Positions 3,852 through 52,775 of a stretch of DNA of 64,000 nt are shown in pieces. The stretch covers positions 1,870,001 to 1,934,000 of the forward strand of contig NZ_WIQK01000001.1 in the NCBI RefSeq assembly GCF_015732155.1. The letters run 5' to 3'. The notes beneath the pieces were generated by a model. That model saw only the letters and a list, made by a program, of their open reading frames with translations, was not told the origin of the DNA and ran no database searches. A program made the translations under genes and the position numbers. This stretch comes from Pectinatus sottacetonis (GTDB lineage Bacteria > Bacillota > Negativicutes > Selenomonadales > Selenomonadaceae). Each line of letters starts with the position of its first letter. The first letter of the stretch is position 1.

Positions 3852-4610
3852 TTAGAGTGTTTTTTGCTTGGAATAATTCATTTCAGTAAGATATGGCCAG
3901 TATTTTTTAGGCATAAACGAACGTTGGAGAGCGGGATTAGTTCTTTCCTTTATTGCAATATGACAATAATAACGGTACCATATGCTGCGAAATTCCTCTT
4001 CGTTTTGGCTGTATTTTATATTTCTTTCTGGTTCGGTAACATCGGCAATTACTACGTTTTGTTTATCATAGTATGCTGCTATATGCCGGTGCAGGTCATG
4101 TATTGCCCATCTTTCATTAGGCATTCTGTTGGTAAAATGTCCTGCTAGTAGTGGAACAATATTGTAATCAGGATGTATATTGGCATACATCATTCCCTCT
4201 TCAAGTTCATTGAAGCGGATGAGGCCCAGCATGCGATGACGTTCATTACTGGTTTTTAATGACCAGTGTTCGACTTGTTGTATCCAGGGATCATATTTTT
4301 GCTGGGCAAAAGTTTTTTTATAGCGGAAAGCACAGCATATGTAATAAAAAAGAATCATTTCCCGCTCAGGTTGTTCAGCCATAAATGCATAATATAGGAT
4401 ATGAGTAGCACGGGCACCGCATTGCTGGTATAGTGATTTAAGAACTTTTTCTGAATGAGCGGTATTTAAAGAAATATTTTTTTCATTTCCGAATAATGTT
4501 GGTCCGGCAGATAAGTTTTCTATTTTTTCGACATGGCTTGTGCCGTCGTGATATGCTTGATAAATAACCGATAAAAAACCTAAGAAAGAGCCATCATATT
4601 GATAATGCAA
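3852..4610 (-). CDS. TIGR03915-family putative DNA repair protein
   Basis: A 252-residue protein of the family always found beside a radical-SAM DNA-repair/modification protein; the biochemical role is unknown. It resembles the family in its N-terminal YQYDGSFLGFLS and its C-terminal MPKKYWPYLTEM. In about half the family this partner is fused to a uracil-DNA-glycosylase-like domain; here the protein is short and stands alone. It starts 3 nt after the radical-SAM gene stop, so the two are certainly co-transcribed. Family assignment is from recall of sequence features, function from gene context. Confidence 0.75.
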   Translation of the reverse strand: MHYQYDGSFLGFLSVIYQAYHDGTSHVEKIENLSAGPTLFGNEKNISLNTAHSEKVLKSLYQQCGARATHILYYAFMAEQPEREMILFYYICCAFRYKKTFAQQKYDPWIQQVEHWSLKTSNERHRMLGLIRFNELEEGMMYANIHPDYNIVPLLAGHFTNRMPNERWAIHDLHRHIAAYYDKQNVVIADVTEPERNIKYSQNEEEFRSIWYRYYCHIAIKERTNPALQRSFMPKKYWPYLTEMNYSKQKTL

Positions 4611-9294: not shown

Positions 9295-12021
9295 ATGAAA
9301 CGTATTGATAAAATATATGAATATATAAAAGAGGCTGCTGATAATGAGGAAATACAGGAAAAAGGATTGACTGCTATGCAGATAGCTGACCATCTGAATA
9401 TATTACGCAGTAATGTCAGCCGTGAACTTAATGAACTTTACCGCCAGAAAAAAATAGAAAAATTGCCTGGGCGGCCGGTTAAGTATCTTTATACCAATAG
9501 TGTGGGTGAAAAGTCGGCAGATAATAGAATTGTTGGGAAAGAACCAGAAAAACCACTTGATACAGCTTTTTGCAATTTTATCGGCAGTAGTTTGAAAGGG
9601 CAGATAGATCAGGCTAAAGCGGCAATTATTTATCCACCTGATGGATTGCATACCCTTATACTAGGGGAAACAGGGGTAGGTAAAACGCTGTTTGCTCATA
9701 TGATGTTTGAATATGGTTGTCAAGTCGGAAGGTTTAAAGCAGATGCGCCGTTTATTACATTTAACTGTGCTGACTATTATAATAATCCGCAATTATTGAT
9801 ATCGCATATTTTTGGTCATATAAAAGGTGCTTTTACCGGCGCTGATACTAATGCTGTAGGACTTATTGAATCAGCTGATCAGGGTGTTTTATTTTTAGAT
9901 GAAGTACACAGACTGCCACCAGAAGGACAGGAAATGATATTTTATTTTATGGATACGGGTACTTTTAACAGGTTAGGTGAGACAAAGCGAGAGCGCAAGG
10001 CCCGCGTATTGATAATTTGTGCTACGACAGAAAATCCTGATTCGGTCCTGACACGTACATTTAAGCGGCGTATTCCTAATATTATTGAAATACCACCATT
10101 ATCTGAGCGTCCAATAGAAGAAAAATTGGAAATTATTAAGCTGTTATTTTTAAAAGAATCGCTGTGTGTTAAAAGACCGATAAAAGTTAGCGGTGATGCT
10201 ATAAAAGCATTGATCGGAAGCATTGGTCCAGGAAATGTTGGGCAATTAGAATCTAATATACGTTTATTGTGCGCCAAGGGTTTGCTTAATATAAAAAAAC
10301 GTAAATATATAGATATAAACTATCAGATGCTGCCGCAGCAGATCAAGTCAGGCATACTCTCAATGAGCACTAAACGTATGGATATGGCAGCAATATCAGC
10401 TACTATTGGCAATGAATTTTATGTGACACCTGATAACAAGAAGAAATTACCTAAGGAAGTTGAAGATGACAAATTTAATTTGTATCAGATGGTGGAAGAT
10501 AAAATAAAAGTTTTAAAAAATGAAGGCATTGCTGATGATGTAGTGCAGCAGGTCATCATTGCAGATGTAAATGCATATTTAAAAGATTTTTATATAAAAC
10601 AAAAACAAAACGTCACGTTATCTGTCAGAGACAGGTTATTAAAGATTGTTGATGCGGATATGGTAGATTTTACACAGCAGGTAGCTGATCTTGTGGCAGT
10701 AAAAGTAAAACTTATTTCCAAAGAGAGGTTTTTATATGCTTTTGCTCTTCACCTTAGTTCATTATTTGCCAGGATAAAAGAAAAAAAGCAATTTCGTAAT
10801 TCATTGTCTGGCATGGTCAATACAGCTACACCAGAATTTGAGATTGCAAAAGAAATAAAAAAAATGATTGAAGATCATTATAACGTTGATATAGCTGCAT
10901 CTGAAACGGAATATTTTGCAATGCTGTTACAGTCCTTAAAGGAAGAGGACATAACCGATAAAATTGTAATTGCTGTAGCAATGCACGGTAATTATACGGC
11001 AAGCTCAGTTTGTGATGTTGCCCGCAAATTGTTCAGTGCTACAAAAGTGGAACTAATACCTTTTGATATGCCACTGGAATGTAGACCCAATGAAATGCTT
11101 AAACGTATTGTAGAAAAGCTTAGGGGAATTAATTGCAGTCAGGGTGTGTTGCTCATGGCAGATATGGGCTCCTTATGTAACTTTGGTCCGCTGATAAAAG
11201 AAAAACTGGGCATTCCTGTAATGACCATAAACATGGTAACTACACCTTTAGTTTTGGAAGCTATGCGGAAAGTGGATATGGCGGGAGTGACGCTGCCTGC
11301 TGTATATGATTCATTGAAAAGCTTTGGTGGCTATGATGATAATACTATTGTTACCAGCGATACTAAAAGTGACGTTATTATTACAATATGCAACTCTGGA
11401 GAAGGCACGGCTGAAAAACTTAAACATATGATCCGGGATATTCTGGTAAATGCTGGTATAGTGCATATTAAAGTTATACCTATAAGTTTATACGATATGC
11501 AAGATAACATAAAAAAATTATCAGAGAATTACAATATTATAGCCTCTGTGGGAATAGTTGATCCGCAGATAAATGCACCTTTTATTCCATTGGAAACAAT
11601 ATTGAGCGGTAAGGACAATGCCCTACTATGTCATTTGCCGGCAGCTCGTAATTTTTCGTCTAAACATATTGAAAATAATAATGTTGTTTTGCGTCGTTTA
11701 TGCATTGATGCATTAAATGAAATGTTGTTGTATTTAAACCCGGATAAAGTGGTAAATCTATTGTTATCATTTACAGATGAACTGGAGAGGCTTTTTTCCG
11801 CAGAATTTTCTAATGCCCAAAAATTGAAAATAGTAGTGCATACCGCATGTGCATTGGAAAGAGAAGTAACACACAATGATATAAGCTATAATAGTAAGTT
11901 GATAGGAAAAATCGAACAAAAAGATTTAGCTAAAGTAAAAAAAGCTGCAGGTATTTTTAAACGGATATTACAGCTTACCTTAAAAGATGATGAGCTTTGC
12001 TATATCGCAGCAATGCTGTAA
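9295..12021 (+). CDS. levR: Sigma-54-dependent PTS operon activator, LevR/ManR type
   Basis: A 908-residue activator that opens sigma-54 promoters and is controlled by PTS phosphorylation. Order of domains: N-terminal winged helix (about 1-65), AAA+ domain with Walker A GETGVGKT (124-131), the sigma-54-contact loop GAFTGA (178-183) and Walker B LFLDE (199-203), a PRD (about 465-550), an EIIA-mannose-like domain with MHGNY (about 560-690), an EIIB-like segment (about 700-800), and a second PRD near 820-905. It lies directly upstream of a mannose-family PTS operon with a consensus sigma-54 promoter, the expected target. Confidence 0.92.
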   Translation: MKRIDKIYEYIKEAADNEEIQEKGLTAMQIADHLNILRSNVSRELNELYRQKKIEKLPGRPVKYLYTNSVGEKSADNRIVGKEPEKPLDTAFCNFIGSSLKGQIDQAKAAIIYPPDGLHTLILGETGVGKTLFAHMMFEYGCQVGRFKADAPFITFNCADYYNNPQLLISHIFGHIKGAFTGADTNAVGLIESADQGVLFLDEVHRLPPEGQEMIFYFMDTGTFNRLGETKRERKARVLIICATTENPDSVLTRTFKRRIPNIIEIPPLSERPIEEKLEIIKLLFLKESLCVKRPIKVSGDAIKALIGSIGPGNVGQLESNIRLLCAKGLLNIKKRKYIDINYQMLPQQIKSGILSMSTKRMDMAAISATIGNEFYVTPDNKKKLPKEVEDDKFNLYQMVEDKIKVLKNEGIADDVVQQVIIADVNAYLKDFYIKQKQNVTLSVRDRLLKIVDADMVDFTQQVADLVAVKVKLISKERFLYAFALHLSSLFARIKEKKQFRNSLSGMVNTATPEFEIAKEIKKMIEDHYNVDIAASETEYFAMLLQSLKEEDITDKIVIAVAMHGNYTASSVCDVARKLFSATKVELIPFDMPLECRPNEMLKRIVEKLRGINCSQGVLLMADMGSLCNFGPLIKEKLGIPVMTINMVTTPLVLEAMRKVDMAGVTLPAVYDSLKSFGGYDDNTIVTSDTKSDVIITICNSGEGTAEKLKHMIRDILVNAGIVHIKVIPISLYDMQDNIKKLSENYNIIASVGIVDPQINAPFIPLETILSGKDNALLCHLPAARNFSSKHIENNNVVLRRLCIDALNEMLLYLNPDKVVNLLLSFTDELERLFSAEFSNAQKLKIVVHTACALEREVTHNDISYNSKLIGKIEQKDLAKVKKAAGIFKRILQLTLKDDELCYIAAML

Positions 12022-46745: not shown

Positions 46746-49448
46746 CTATTTTTTATTTGTTATCTCAGTTAAAATATTTAAGGCTTCAGTGAAGTCATAT
46801 TCAGCTAATGCTTTTTTTAGAGGATCTATGGTATGACCAAATGAGTCAGTCAATAATGCGATGTTTTCGTCAAATAAGTCAATGGCTTCAGAATCGTCAT
46901 CACGGAGTAAATATTTTAATCTGGTAACAATATCTTCGGTATTGTTTTTATGAGGGGGAGAAGATTTTACTAAGGAACTTGATTTTGCTAAAAGTGGTAA
47001 GTGGTCATTTATTTCTTTGATAAGAGTTGATAAATTATTATTAATACTGGGTATCAATTTATTGATCTGGGGCAAATCATTATTTTTTATAGCAATTTCC
47101 AGTTGACCAGCTTGTTTTTGAATGGAAAGGGCCCCGATAGCACCTGCTGTCCCTTTTAAAGTATGTATAGAGCGTTCAGCAGATATATAGTCATCTGAAT
47201 GTAGCTGCCTGGTGGTAAGTGATATAATATCAGCCTGTCCCTGGATAAATTTTTCTAGTAAATTAATGTAAACGGGCCGTTTATTTAATACTCTTTTTAG
47301 ACCGACAGAGGTATCCAGCCCGGAAATGTTAATATTAGTGGTTACCGACTGTATACTGCCAGATGATTTTTGTTCAGCATTTATAGATGCAAGACGGCTG
47401 TTATAAGACAGCCATTTTTTTAATGTTGCAAATAAAGCTTGTGGATCAACTGGTTTGGTTATGTAGTCATTCATACCGGCAGCAAAACAGGCATTTTTAT
47501 CAGTATCCAAAGCATTTGCGGTCATCGCCAGAATGGGCATTGTGTCATATTTTCTGTCAGCACGGATTTTTTTAGTAGCAGTGATACCATCCATTACCGG
47601 CATTTGCATATCCATGAGTACCAGATTATAAACTTTTTTCTGTAGCATTTGCAAAGCTTTTTCACCATTACTAGCAATATCTATAAGGCAGCCGCTGTTT
47701 TCTAAAATACCATTGATTACTTCCTGGTTTAGTTCATTATCTTCAACGATTAATAAAGAATTTCCCGAAATTGATAGTGGATTAATTTGAGTAGCAGTCG
47801 TTTCTTCGGAAGATCGTGAAGTGATGCTGGAAGAAATTCTAAAAGCAGTTTTTATAATATCATCCAGACGGGATAATGTTATGGGCTTGGACAGAAATAG
47901 ATTAAAAGCAGGGTTTTTGTTTTCAGGAGGAAGCTCATCATAACTATGGTTTGTTAATATGATGGGAATAGGATATTTTATCAAAGTCATATTGGATATT
48001 ATTTGCCATGTATGCAGGCAGTCGCAGTCACCTGTTAAATTTGCATCAATAAATATCAGATCATAATATTTATTGATATTATGATTTTGTGACAGTATTT
48101 GTATTGCTTTTTTACCATTGGGTACAGTATCAGCCGCAAGTTTAAATCTATAGAGCATTTTTGCAAGATATTTTCTTGTAAAATAATTGTCATCTACAAT
48201 TAGAGCATTATGAGAAGAAAGGTCAGAAATATTTTTAAGTGTAAATTCATTATTGTATGTGTCTAATAATACTGTGAACCAAAATGTACTGCCTTTTCCA
48301 GGAGAACTTTTTACACCGACACTGCCATTCATCATAGCAGCTAATTGTTTGGAGATTGCCAATCCCAGACCTGTACCACCATATTTTCTGGTAGTAGAAG
48401 TATCTGCCTGCTGGAACGACTGAAATAGATTTTTTTGCTGATCTTTTGACATACCAATACCGCTGTCCCTGACAGAAAAATAAAGCAATATTTTTTTTGT
48501 GTTTTTTTGTAAAACTTTGGCAGAAAGAATAATTTGTCCTTGATTAGTAAACTTAACGGCATTATTAATATAGTTTATTAATATTTGACTGATACGTAGT
48601 GGATCACCTTGCAACAGTGCGGGAACAGTGTAGTCAATATTAAAAATAAGTTCTAAGTTTTTTTCTAAAGCTTTATTACTTATAAGATCGGCAACATTAT
48701 CGAGGATAGTATCTCTTTTAAAATCAATGTTTTCGATATTAAGCATACCTGCCTCGATTTTGGAAAAATCTAAAATATCATTTATGATATTTAGTAAATG
48801 ACGGCCTGATTGCTGGATCTTTTCTATGTAATTACGTTGTTTTTTTGTCAACTCAGTATTTAATACTAAATGAGCCATACCAATAATGGCATTCATTGGC
48901 GTGCGTATTTCATGGCTCATATTGGCCAAAAAATCAGATTTTGCCCGTACCGCACTCTCAGCAGATTGCTTGGCAGCCTGCAGCTCAATTGTCTTACTGG
49001 ATAGTTGTTCATTATTTCGCTGTAATGTCAGTAATAATTCATTTTTACTGGGAAGTGCCAGCTGCTGTCGCAGGTCAAATACAAATTCGTCTGATAGTTC
49101 TAGATAAGGAAGCCTGTTAATAGTTTCAAGTGACAATAAATCAGCAGCGGTATTTTTTTTATATGTGATAGAGGAAAAAAAGAAACTGATGCCGGGTATT
49201 GTCAATGGCTGGGAAAGCCATTCATAACGTATATGCAGAAGAGTACTGCCTGATTCCTGCTGTATGTTTATAAAGATTGTGAGTTTTCTGTTGATAATGA
49301 CATTGCGGCATATTTCAGAAATAATAGTTTCTATTCTTGCTGCTTTTATTTCTGAAAAATGAAGTTGTTTAGCTATATAGTAAATTTTTTGACGTATATA
49401 AGGCAAATCTTCCAAAGTATTTATTGATAATATGCCTAATTTAATCAT
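46746..49448 (-). CDS. Hybrid histidine kinase of the stressosome operon (RsbT-like/HisKA/HATPase/REC/REC/HPt)
   Basis: A 900-residue cytoplasmic phosphorelay protein with no transmembrane segment. Order: an N-terminal segment (about 15-75) resembling the first half of an RsbT/RsbW-type ATPase ([17 protein letters not shown]), a coiled coil (about 130-172), HisKA with His179 in MSHEIRTPM, HATPase_c (about 280-395, DSGIGM, GGTGLGL), a first REC (412-535, Asp468), a second REC (563-680, Asp613) and HPt with His762 in HTLKGTAGA. It overlaps the rsbX gene by 8 nt. The N-terminal segment lacks ATP-lid glycine motifs and could be the docking site for stressosome signals. No cognate output regulator is adjacent except the HD-GYP protein at the operon start. 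Confidence 0.93.
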
Positions 49449-50028
49449 TTATGCACCTCGCAATGATACATGAAGCATCATCAGTGTCTTTGCCAAAATG
49501 GGCAATGAGTTCTGCTGCTGGATTACGGGTGTTTTTTAACAAATATTGTGCTTGGGAAAAATCAATATGTGCCATGACACCATCTGAATGAATGATAAAA
49601 AAGTCGTTATTGTTTAATTTTATTTTTTGTTCTTTAGGAGTACTTATTTGATAGCCGATGATGCCTTCCTGAGGAAGGAGCTTTTTTTTTGTATCATGCC
49701 ATATTTGTGTGGTAATGTTTCCTATGCTTACCAATGACAGAATAGCAGAGGATAAATCAATCCGGCAAAGGGCTGCAACAGCTCCATGGGTTCCTTGTAG
49801 AAATTTATGCAGATTGTCTGCAAGAACAGGCAGTGGCATAGTATAGTTCTCACTTAGGTATGTTTTTACTTTTTGAGCTACGACGGAAGCGGTAAACCCT
49901 TTACCTAGTACATCAATTAATGCTAAAAAGGAATATTCTTTTGTTTTTATGATGATACCGGTATCGCCGGAATAATTACCATTTAGGATGTAAGGCCGTA
50001 TTGAAATGTAGCAAATGGTTTTTAGCAT
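49441..50028 (-). CDS. rsbX: Stressosome phosphatase RsbX (SpoIIE/PP2C type)
   Basis: A 195-residue PP2C-like phosphatase that resets the stressosome by dephosphorylating RsbR and RsbS. Metal-binding and active-site motifs are visible as [22 protein letters not shown] and DTDDASCI. Starts 6 nt after the rsbT stop and overlaps the hybrid kinase gene by 8 nt. Named from domain and operon position. Confidence 0.88.
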
Positions 50029-50034
50029 TAAGAC

Positions 50035-50460
50035 TCACTTCCATTTTCTTGTTAAAATATAAGTTCCTTTTCCTAAATGTGAATCAATAATAAAGTCATC
50101 CATGATTCTTTTTACACTTGGCAGTCCCATGCCTAGACTTTTATTTGTTGTAGTAAAATTATCCTTTAAAGCCATTTTTATATCGGGTATCCCAGGTCCT
50201 TTATCACTGGCAATTATTTCTATACCAATTGTTTCTGCGGTTGAAATAATGCGCAGGATTATTTCGCCTGTTGTAGCGTAGCGCAGAATATTGGTGGATA
50301 GTTCAGAGGCGGCAGTAGCTATAAGAACACTGTCAGTATTATTAAAACCAGCGGTAACGGCCAGCTGTTTGGCAGTAAGTACTACTCTGTGGTTATCATC
50401 ATAATGGGATAGGGTGAAAAAATGTTCTTCTAATGTGGCAATTGCTTTGTATTTCAGAAT
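50035..50460 (-). CDS. rsbT: Stressosome kinase RsbT, non-canonical start codon
   Basis: Serine kinase of the GHKL fold, about 141 residues, that phosphorylates RsbR and RsbS and then leaves to activate downstream partners. N-box ATAASELSTNILRYA, G1 box ASDKGPGIPD and the G2-like NKSLGMGLPSVKRIMDDF are all present. No ATG, GTG or TTG exists in frame between the rsbS stop and the conserved region. The best start is ATT at 50458-50460 (GAGGTG 9 nt upstream), with CTG as next codon the alternative. A single-base deletion after an out-of-frame GTG at 50471 is a third explanation. Frame and motifs otherwise intact. Confidence 0.85.
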   Translation of the reverse strand: MLKYKAIATLEEHFFTLSHYDDNHRVVLTAKQLAVTAGFNNTDSVLIATAASELSTNILRYATTGEIILRIISTAETIGIEIIASDKGPGIPDIKMALKDNFTTTNKSLGMGLPSVKRIMDDFIIDSHLGKGTYILTRKWK

Positions 50461-50498
50461 CTTTCCTGCACCTCTTTTTAAATATAGAGTTACATTAA

Positions 50499-50876
50499 TT
50501 ATGACATCTTTTTCAATAAATTTAAAGCGTCTTCCATTGTTCTGGCAGCATAAATATTTTTAATATCAACTTCAATGTCCACTAAAGACGATACAATTCC
50601 GGGATTTAGTGAGGTCCAGATAACAGGAATATGCATTAACTGCAGGCTTTTAGTGATTTTTATGAAAATATCACAAGCAAAAGAGTCAAGAACATGAACC
50701 GCGTTGAAATCCAATATCAGTCCTTTAGTGTTTTCTAAATATTTGTGTTGTAAAATAGCTTTTTTGTGAAGTAAAAGTGTATTATCATCACTGCATTCCT
50801 GAACAGCTACTATAAGATAATTTTCGATTTTACTTATAGCAAGTGGAATACTGCGGTCTGCCTTATTCATTTTCAT
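50499..50876 (-). CDS. rsbS: Stressosome scaffold protein RsbS
   Basis: Single STAS-domain protein of 125 residues, a core subunit of the stressosome. Ser65 in VLDSFACDI aligns with the RsbT-phosphorylated serine of B. subtilis RsbS (IDSF). It overlaps the end of rsbR by 14 nt and is followed by rsbT after 38 nt. Two in-frame ATGs lie at its start; either is possible. Confidence 0.9.
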   Translation of the reverse strand: MKMNKADRSIPLAISKIENYLIVAVQECSDDNTLLLHKKAILQHKYLENTKGLILDFNAVHVLDSFACDIFIKITKSLQLMHIPVIWTSLNPGIVSSLVDIEVDIKNIYAARTMEDALNLLKKMS

Positions 50877-51672
50877 TGGCAGTAATTTTTAAATTTAGGA
50901 TGGAAAAGGCATCGCTAAGGGAATTTTTCAAAGAAGAATTTGTTTTGATATTACCCATGTCTATTCCCAGCTGAACAATAGCTTGGGCAACTGCGGGTGA
51001 AATACCTGATAGAATACATTGACAGCCCATTAATGAGGTCGCCTTTGTTATTTTTATAAGATGATTGGCTACAGCAGTATCAACGGCGGGTACACCTTGT
51101 ATGTCAAGAATGATTACCTTGGCCGCAGTTTCCATTATTTTTTCCAGCATAGTATCCATCATGTGCTGGGCTCTTAATGAATCAATAATTCCAATGACAG
51201 GCAGAACTAGTACTCCATCCCATAATGTAAGGGCAGGCGTGGAAATTTCCTTAATAGTATGACTTTGTTCCTGAAGCTTTTTTTCAAAAGAAACTCTTTG
51301 GGTGATATCAAGAAGATATTCAAGACCGCCTATTATCGTTCCCTCGCTGTCCTTGAGGGGAACAGCATAAATTTCTATGGGCATTTTGCTGTTACCAATG
51401 GTTAATTGTGACCGGCCAGTTTGATTTTCCTGGGTATCTATTGCCAGCTTTATTACTGATGAAGCGGCATGGTCGGGCGCAATATTGAAGAGTTTATGAA
51501 AAGGCTGCTCTTTATAACTGTCAGTTGATTTGTTGAAAATATCACGGGAAGCCGAGTTGAGATAGATTATTTCCATATTGAGATCGACAGCTATTACCAT
51601 GACCGGTATTTGGTCAAGAATTTGTTCATGCAATAAATTTTCAGAAAACTTATCAGAAATTATGTTATCCAC
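50863..51672 (-). CDS. rsbR: Stressosome sensor RsbR with N-terminal PAS domain
   Basis: A 269-residue protein with a PAS domain (about 15-125: MVIAVDLNMEIIYLNSASRDIF, GGLEYLLDITQRV), a short linker helix and a C-terminal STAS domain (about 145-265). The two RsbT target sites of B. subtilis RsbR are represented by Ser165 (GIIDSLRAQ) and Thr199 (VPAVDTAVANH). Its globin-type sensor is replaced by PAS, so the signal may be redox, gas or a small ligand. There is 17 nt between it and the HD-GYP gene. Confidence 0.92.
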   Translation of the reverse strand: MDNIISDKFSENLLHEQILDQIPVMVIAVDLNMEIIYLNSASRDIFNKSTDSYKEQPFHKLFNIAPDHAASSVIKLAIDTQENQTGRSQLTIGNSKMPIEIYAVPLKDSEGTIIGGLEYLLDITQRVSFEKKLQEQSHTIKEISTPALTLWDGVLVLPVIGIIDSLRAQHMMDTMLEKIMETAAKVIILDIQGVPAVDTAVANHLIKITKATSLMGCQCILSGISPAVAQAIVQLGIDMGNIKTNSSLKNSLSDAFSILNLKITANENE

Positions 51673-51689
51673 TATAATACACTTCCTTT

Positions 51690-52775
51690 TTATTGAATAG
51701 AAATAGCTTGAAAATTTTTCTCCAGTGCAATAAAAGCATCAATGATCACCGGATCAAAATGTTTACCGGAATCATTTTTTATTATTGATACAGCCATAGC
51801 ATGGGGGAAAGCTTTTTTATATACTCTGGTACTAATCAAAGCATCATAAACATCTGCTACAGCCATAATTCTGGCTGAAAGAGGAATGCTTTTGCCTATT
51901 AAACCATTGGGGTAGCCACTGCCATCCCATTTTTCGTGATGACAAAAAGCAATTTCTTTGGCAAATTGTAAAAAATTTTCTGATTCCCTTTTTAACATTG
52001 ATTCAGCCAGACTTATAGCATTTTTTCCAATTGTAGTATGTGTTTTCATTATTTCGAATTCTTCTGTGGTTAATCGGCCGGGCTTAAGTAAAATGCTATC
52101 AGGAATTCCTACTTTTCCGATATCATGTAATGGAGCAGATTTGACAATTAAATTAATGTTTTTATCAGTTAATATATCGATAAATTTTCCCTTGTGTTTT
52201 AAATATAATGAAAGTTCTTTTACATATTCTTTAGTACGATGAATGTGTAAGCCGGTTTCATTATCCCGTGCTTCAGCTAGTGCTGCCATGGCAACAATGG
52301 AAACTTCTTGAATCAGGGATATTTCCTTGACTTGACGGGCCACTTCTGCTTCAAGGTACTGGTTTTTATTTTTTAAAAGGTCTCTGGTTCGTTTTAACTC
52401 AAGATGGTTGTGGATTCGGGATAACAATACAGGAGGACTGAGGGGCTTTATAATATAATCCACAGCACCTAAAGCAAGTCCTTTTTCTTCATCTTCAATA
52501 GAACTTTTGGCTGTAAGAAAAATTATGGGAATATCAGCAGTTTTTGATTGGTGTTTTAATAGTTTGCATACTTCATAGCCATCCATTTGAGGCATTATAA
52601 CATCTAGTAATATGAGATCCGGTGGAGAAGCTGTGGCTATCGATAAAGCTTTTATACCATTTGTAGCAACTTTGATCTTATAAATATTTTTTAGTATTTC
52701 CCTGGCAATTGTCAGATTATCAGGAGCATCATCGACAATGAGAATAGTGGGTTTTTCTTCCTTGGTAAAAAACAT
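51690..52775 (-). CDS. REC-HD-GYP response regulator (c-di-GMP phosphodiesterase)
   Basis: A 361-residue response regulator, first gene of the stressosome operon. The REC domain (about 8-125) has Asp58 as phospho-acceptor (LILLDVIMPQMDG). A coiled linker leads to the HD-GYP domain (about 155-355) with APLHDIGKVGIPD and HHEKWDGSGYPNGL, which carry the metal ligands and GYP motif, so it should cleave c-di-GMP. It is the likely receiver of the hybrid kinase's phosphate. Confidence 0.93.
   Translation of the reverse strand: MFFTKEEKPTILIVDDAPDNLTIAREILKNIYKIKVATNGIKALSIATASPPDLILLDVIMPQMDGYEVCKLLKHQSKTADIPIIFLTAKSSIEDEEKGLALGAVDYIIKPLSPPVLLSRIHNHLELKRTRDLLKNKNQYLEAEVARQVKEISLIQEVSIVAMAALAEARDNETGLHIHRTKEYVKELSLYLKHKGKFIDILTDKNINLIVKSAPLHDIGKVGIPDSILLKPGRLTTEEFEIMKTHTTIGKNAISLAESMLKRESENFLQFAKEIAFCHHEKWDGSGYPNGLIGKSIPLSARIMAVADVYDALISTRVYKKAFPHAMAVSIIKNDSGKHFDPVIIDAFIALEKNFQAISIQ

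Follow-up and report, generated by a model that had tools for sequence, protein, structure and literature searches.

A stressosome kinase gene, rsbT, with a probable ATT start codon in Pectinatus sottacetonis

In Streptomyces, the sigma factor gene sigR starts with GTC, and this codon together with initiation factor 3 (IF3) holds SigR below its anti-sigma factor (PMC5472188). In Staphylococcus aureus, AUU and AUA starts preceded by a strong Shine-Dalgarno sequence yield ~10% of the AUG level in poor medium, and the AUA-started ccpN up to 30% in rich medium (PMC13009471). Start codon mutants of rsbW in Listeria monocytogenes were translated in the order ATG > ATA > ATT, and across 60,690 genomes the sigB operon genes nearly always start with ATG, or with GTG for rsbS (PMC13068326). 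Here we describe rsbT, a stressosome switch kinase gene, in a 64,000-nt stretch of Pectinatus sottacetonis DNA (the window), from a genome assembly of two contigs. Its frame holds no ATG, GTG or TTG compatible with a whole RsbT, and the gene is probably intact and translated from the ATT at 50460-50458, a reading to which we assign a probability of about 0.7.

The sigR gene resembles this rsbT as a stress-response regulator, its non-canonical start holding it below a sequestering partner (PMC5472188), but it encodes a sigma factor, starts with GTC and is under an experimentally demonstrated IF3 control, whereas the present gene encodes a stressosome kinase with an ATT start and is known from sequence alone. 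The Listeria rsbW mutants share the partner-switching network and an ATT start (PMC13068326), while here another gene is concerned, in a module without adjacent sigB genes. A strong Shine-Dalgarno sequence with reduced initiation is common to infC (ATT in E. coli), S. aureus cvfC1 (AUU) and ccpN (AUA) (PMC13009471, PMC5472188); however, their starts are conserved across related species and experimentally mapped, whereas the rsbT ATT was seen in one genome. In the S. aureus and Streptomyces examples relatives share the non-canonical codon, although a gene can belong to this kind without such conservation. The rsbRSTX genes of Vibrio vulnificus have the same R-S-T-X order followed by a two-component protein, which was proposed as target, yet an interaction between RsbT and the kinase was undetected (PMC9237108); in contrast to Vibrio, the window rsbR has a PAS instead of a globin domain, and the window rsbT has no canonical start. 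The literature searched on rsbT and stressosome start codons yielded no description of an rsbT beginning with ATT.

The rsbT frame, its product and its start codon

The following features, all on the minus strand, define the gene and its start region.

50035..50460, minus strand: rsbT, switch kinase, 141 aa read from ATT; assigned by HATPase_c_2, clade, AlphaFold and Foldseek
50458..50460, minus strand: ATT, proposed rsbT start, 8 nt after GAGGTG; ATG at this residue in the relatives L062, L064 and L100
50455..50457, minus strand: CTG, less likely alternative rsbT start; aligned Shine-Dalgarno spacing 11
50469..50474, minus strand: Shine-Dalgarno GAGGTG; duplex of -9.5 kcal/mol with the 16S tail of this genome
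50461..50498, minus strand: gap of 38 nt between rsbS and rsbT; ordinary RNA fold, z-score -0.02

Judged from its sequence and predicted structure, the product is a genuine RsbT-type kinase. It matched the Pfam families HATPase_c and HATPase_c_2 (9.2e-9 for the latter) and carries a GHKL ATPase domain with the N box and the G1 and G2 motifs. Residues E53, N57, D86, G88, G90, G110 and G112 were invariant in an alignment of 39 sequences, and the kinase motifs are intact, as an earlier note on this DNA had stated. The AlphaFold model reached a mean predicted local distance difference test score of 91.5, and Foldseek matched it to SpoIIAB structures (E 4.4e-10). Further, RsbT shared 44% identity with an 'anti-sigma regulatory factor' of Listeria in the plasmid collection, whose gene is preceded by two STAS genes and followed by those of a PP2C phosphatase, rsbV, rsbW and sigB. 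The window gene adjoins rsbR-like and rsbS-like STAS genes and lies directly downstream of them.

The rsbT frame is open from 50559 to 50038 on the minus strand, with the stop at 50037-50035. As the earlier note had reported, no ATG, GTG or TTG is available for the whole protein; the first in-frame one is the ATG at 50175-50173, 128 codons into the frame and at residue 96 counted from the ATT, and a start there would delete the N box and the G1 motif. An open reading frame (ORF) scan with ordinary starts returned no rsbT of at least 120 aa.

The proposed ATT follows GAGGTG after an 8-nt spacer, CAGGAAAG, and the 16S rRNA of this genome terminates in GGATCACCTCCTTT; the earlier note had named this ATT and this Shine-Dalgarno sequence correctly but had set them 9 nt apart. 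Based on 29 chosen genes of the window, a set from which seven further rows with a weak or absent Shine-Dalgarno sequence, two of them rsbS, had been omitted, a match of at least 5 bases was found in 22, and 21 of the 22 showed an aligned spacing of 1-9. On the same scale the spacing of rsbT is 8 for the ATT and 11 for the CTG. A near-cognate codon therefore stands at the proper distance from a strong Shine-Dalgarno sequence. The AlphaFold model places the first strand of RsbT at residues 8-17, and a start beyond residue 7 is disfavoured because it would cut this predicted strand.

To place rsbT among the genes of this genome, 457,000 bases were sampled (the window plus 20 stretches, the infC stretch included, with 2,500 bases masked), and an ORF was flagged when its first canonical codon lay at least 15 codons inside the likely coding part. 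Eleven of the 362 coding-like ORFs kept were flagged, rsbT and infC among them. With 121 codons and a log-odds of 17, the rsbT frame had the longest coding-like stretch ahead of the first canonical codon. An ORF in the stretch labelled L150 had 76 codons and a log-odds of 19, slightly above rsbT, and the other nine flagged ORFs scored 1 to 6. The L150 ORF lies at 9877-10377 (G000:C1:1130001-1150000), and two further flagged ORFs occur in the same stretch, which is possibly a decayed or mobile region.

It is well established that infC is a textbook ATT-start gene. The infC of this genome (L061, G000:C2:18649-19149), located on the smaller, 66,679-base contig, has no ATG, GTG or TTG start either. 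Its open frame begins ATT TTT ATT AGT, the second ATT being at spacing 7 behind GAGAGGTG, which includes GAGGTG, and infC appears to begin at this ATT. Because the infC ATT follows a strong Shine-Dalgarno sequence, this genome holds a second gene with the layout of rsbT.

Distribution and start codons of rsbT relatives

At E 0.001, rsbT was found in none of 36 genomes of the same genus or family. Matches at 1e-12 were obtained in 2 of 380 genomes of the class and at 1e-18 in 49 of 398 genomes of a phylum sample, the own genome included in both counts, and a scan of genome contigs with the single protein returned no rsbT relative. An alignment-based scan of named genomes kept the best 80 of 591 relatives, and the final set of relatives comprised 111 rows, 109 of them distinct (L029/L092 and L032/L084 are duplicate fetches of the same gene). 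Among the matches listed, the nearest were L062 from a deltaproteobacterial metagenome-assembled genome (MAG), L063 and L100 from Spirochaetales MAGs and L064 from a Desulfamplus MAG; these four were 41-51% identical to the window RsbT over the alignment. In a tree of 39 RsbT-like rows, whose bootstrap is not fully settled, the window RsbT formed a clade with L062, L063, L064 and L100 (support 100/97), with weak support (87/13) for joining the window RsbT to L062. Searches for further clade members in samples of the phyla of two relatives (E 1e-26) yielded little, namely hits in 4 genomes out of 395 for one and in 1 out of 344 for the other, the centre genome counted each time. L062 carries response regulator-HD, PAS-STAS, STAS, rsbT and a hybrid kinase clipped by the contig end, arranged as in the window. 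Since RsbT groups with Spirochaetes and Deltaproteobacteria and is absent from the 36 genomes of the same genus or family, these sequence relationships suggest that the RsbT module (46746-52775) was gained horizontally.

A canonical codon in frame, 45 to 2 codons before the conserved D22, was present in 108 of 111 relatives; the start codons of relatives are the analyst's choice, aided by overlap with the rsbS stop, and the presence of a canonical codon does not prove its use. L081, which first seemed to have no canonical start, was a false alarm, its in-frame GTG being hidden by an alignment deletion. In L097 the frame stays open upstream over ~357 codons, and no rsbS-like frame precedes it. 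In L099, from an Actinomycetota MAG, the open rsbT frame contains no ATG, GTG or TTG up to D22, and a CTG (4429-4431) overlaps a real rsbS stop as CTGA.

An ATG exactly at the position of the window ATT was found in 5 of the 111 relatives. Three of the five, L062, L064 and L100, are among the four clade members, and the remaining two are among the 107 others. At their N-termini, L062 and L100 can be aligned to the window RsbT without a gap. Three clade members have an rsbT ATG that overlaps the stop of rsbS, in the form ATGAATAA in L062 and L064 (rsbS of L064 assigned by eye) and ATGA in L063, where the window has a 38-nt gap. Taken together, these sequences indicate that ATG seems to be ancestral in the clade and the window ATT derived.

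Weighing the ATT start against other explanations

Several observations weigh against an ATT-started rsbT. The best coding stretch of rsbT opens at codon 7 of the frame, within the rsbS overlap, and since it reaches back into this overlap, codon usage cannot place the rsbT start. A Shine-Dalgarno sequence of at least 6 bases at spacing 4-9 preceded 249 of 33,267 ATT triplets and 710 of 98,206 near-cognate triplets sampled, and the rsbT start region contains five near-cognate codons (ATA, ATT, ATT, CTG, ATT); the chance of such a coincidence is ~4%, so that the Shine-Dalgarno sequence taken alone is moderate evidence. One of the other ATT codons, at residue 7, just precedes the first predicted strand and is ruled out solely by its missing Shine-Dalgarno sequence. 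The leader RNA fold is nothing special, and a structured rsbT leader was rejected on its z-score of -0.02. The ATT was seen in one genome, none of the 36 genomes of the same genus or family having yielded the gene, and the closest relatives offer ATG. Further, L062, L064 and L100 each hold additional in-frame canonical codons nearby, and the rsbS overlap puts the starts of L063 and L064 five codons later, so the N-terminus varies. The count of ATG at the ATT residue and the caveat of multiple candidate starts roughly balance each other.

The most serious alternative is a sequencing or assembly error, in which the true start is an ATG at the same place with one base misread. A single substitution at the third position of the start triplet, the simplest form of error, would suffice; of the four closest relatives, three have ATG exactly there, and only one sequence of the species was available. 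However, the assembly comprises just two contigs, and such faults are uncommon, because among the 362 ORFs only rsbT and the one L150 ORF have a long well-scoring stretch ahead of the first canonical codon; infC, moreover, is a case of an ATT start in the same genome. We consider a misread base unlikely.

A recent genuine loss of the start codon, leaving rsbT on the way to a pseudogene with little or no protein, would fit the apparently ancestral ATG of the clade, and the rarity of the gene in the class, with its own genome one of only two hits, means that it may be dispensable. Against this, the frame, the kinase motifs and the neighbouring operon genes are intact and the Shine-Dalgarno sequence is retained, which makes such decay quite improbable.

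The earlier note had left the start as either the ATT or the adjacent CTG. The ATT is favoured by its spacing, by the infC layout and by the ATG of the relatives. CTG is a known weak start codon, here with AGGA 6 nt upstream, and in L099 the CTG overlapping the rsbS stop is the best candidate start; however, at 50457-50455 it lies one residue later than the ATT, its spacing of 11 from GAGGTG is beyond the main range, and the relatives have their ATG one codon earlier. The likelihood of a CTG start is accordingly small.

An RsbS-RsbT fusion made by -1 frameshifting at TTG AAA AAG near the rsbS end is very improbable. The -1 frame of rsbT is open across the last 20 rsbS codons, with AAA AAG inside, and the coding-like stretch extends into the overlap, although this may reflect the codon usage of rsbS in the shared region. 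Yet rsbT has a separate Shine-Dalgarno sequence, the relatives have an ATG for a separate RsbT, and the RNA fold is ordinary; G AAA AAG also departs from the standard slippery heptamer, which counts against a fusion. A prfB-like +1 frameshift from a GTG mini-frame (GTG CAG GAA AGA TTC TGA) was considered as well and rejected, as rsbT is in the -1 frame. The earlier note's other suggestion, a base missing after a formerly used, now out-of-frame GTG (50471-50469), would need one inserted base to bring that GTG into frame, but it is scarcely credible, as the GTG is part of the Shine-Dalgarno sequence and has no such sequence 5-10 nt upstream of it.

Operon neighbourhood and possible role of the ATT start

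The rsbT gene belongs to a six-gene run, in the order response regulator-HD, rsbR, rsbS, rsbT, rsbX and hybrid kinase. The other members are as follows.

51690..52775, minus strand: response regulator with an HD domain, upstream of rsbR; same make-up upstream of rsbR in L062
50863..51672, minus strand: rsbR (PAS-STAS), GTG start
50499..50870, minus strand: rsbS (STAS); start ATG overlapping the stop of rsbR (ATGAATAA) and lacking a clear Shine-Dalgarno sequence
49441..50028, minus strand: rsbX (SpoIIE-type phosphatase), ATG start
46746..49448, minus strand: hybrid histidine kinase (HisKA, HATPase_c, two receiver stretches, Hpt); start ATG overlapping the stop of rsbX (ATGATTAA)

For rsbS, another ATG occurs two codons further upstream. 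While rsbR and rsbS (ATGAATAA) and rsbX and the kinase gene (ATGATTAA) overlap, rsbS and rsbT are 38 nt apart.

With an ATT start, the strong Shine-Dalgarno sequence (AGAGGTG, with its 8-nt spacer) would position the ribosome at the ATT, where the imperfect pairing of the initiator tRNA with AUU would make initiation inefficient and subject to discrimination by IF3. RsbT would then reach a fraction of the level of RsbR and RsbS, its partners in the scaffold. By analogy with the systems described above, scarce RsbT might stay sequestered until signalling releases it, and leaky signalling would be avoided. Thus, RsbT dosage may be low and perhaps IF3-sensitive. From the sequence, the ATT-started rsbT is most likely a fresh example of the known weak-start strategy. 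That the ATT was selected, with the lineage having uncoupled rsbT from rsbS and adopted an infC-like start that makes the kinase dose, and through it the trigger threshold, depend on IF3 or ribosome status, is a tentative proposal that we regard as doubtful. If the ATT start is true, rsbT would join a small group of stress regulators held down by a poor start codon, and an annotation limited to ATG, GTG and TTG would miss or truncate the kinase, so that the stressosome would seem switchless.

No RsbU_N protein was found in the genome at E 0.001, and no second small RsbT/RsbW-type protein at the family cut-off. For these reasons the downstream hybrid kinase is the probable target of RsbT.

By eye, the N-terminus of the hybrid kinase shows a stretch before HisKA that resembles an RsbT/RsbW-type helix pair, and the kinases of L062 and L100 have a similar one. 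In RsbR (50863-51672), VDT is retained at the first phospho-threonine site, the sites being named as in B. subtilis, and AQAIV stands where L062, L063 and L100 have AQT and L064 has AQA.
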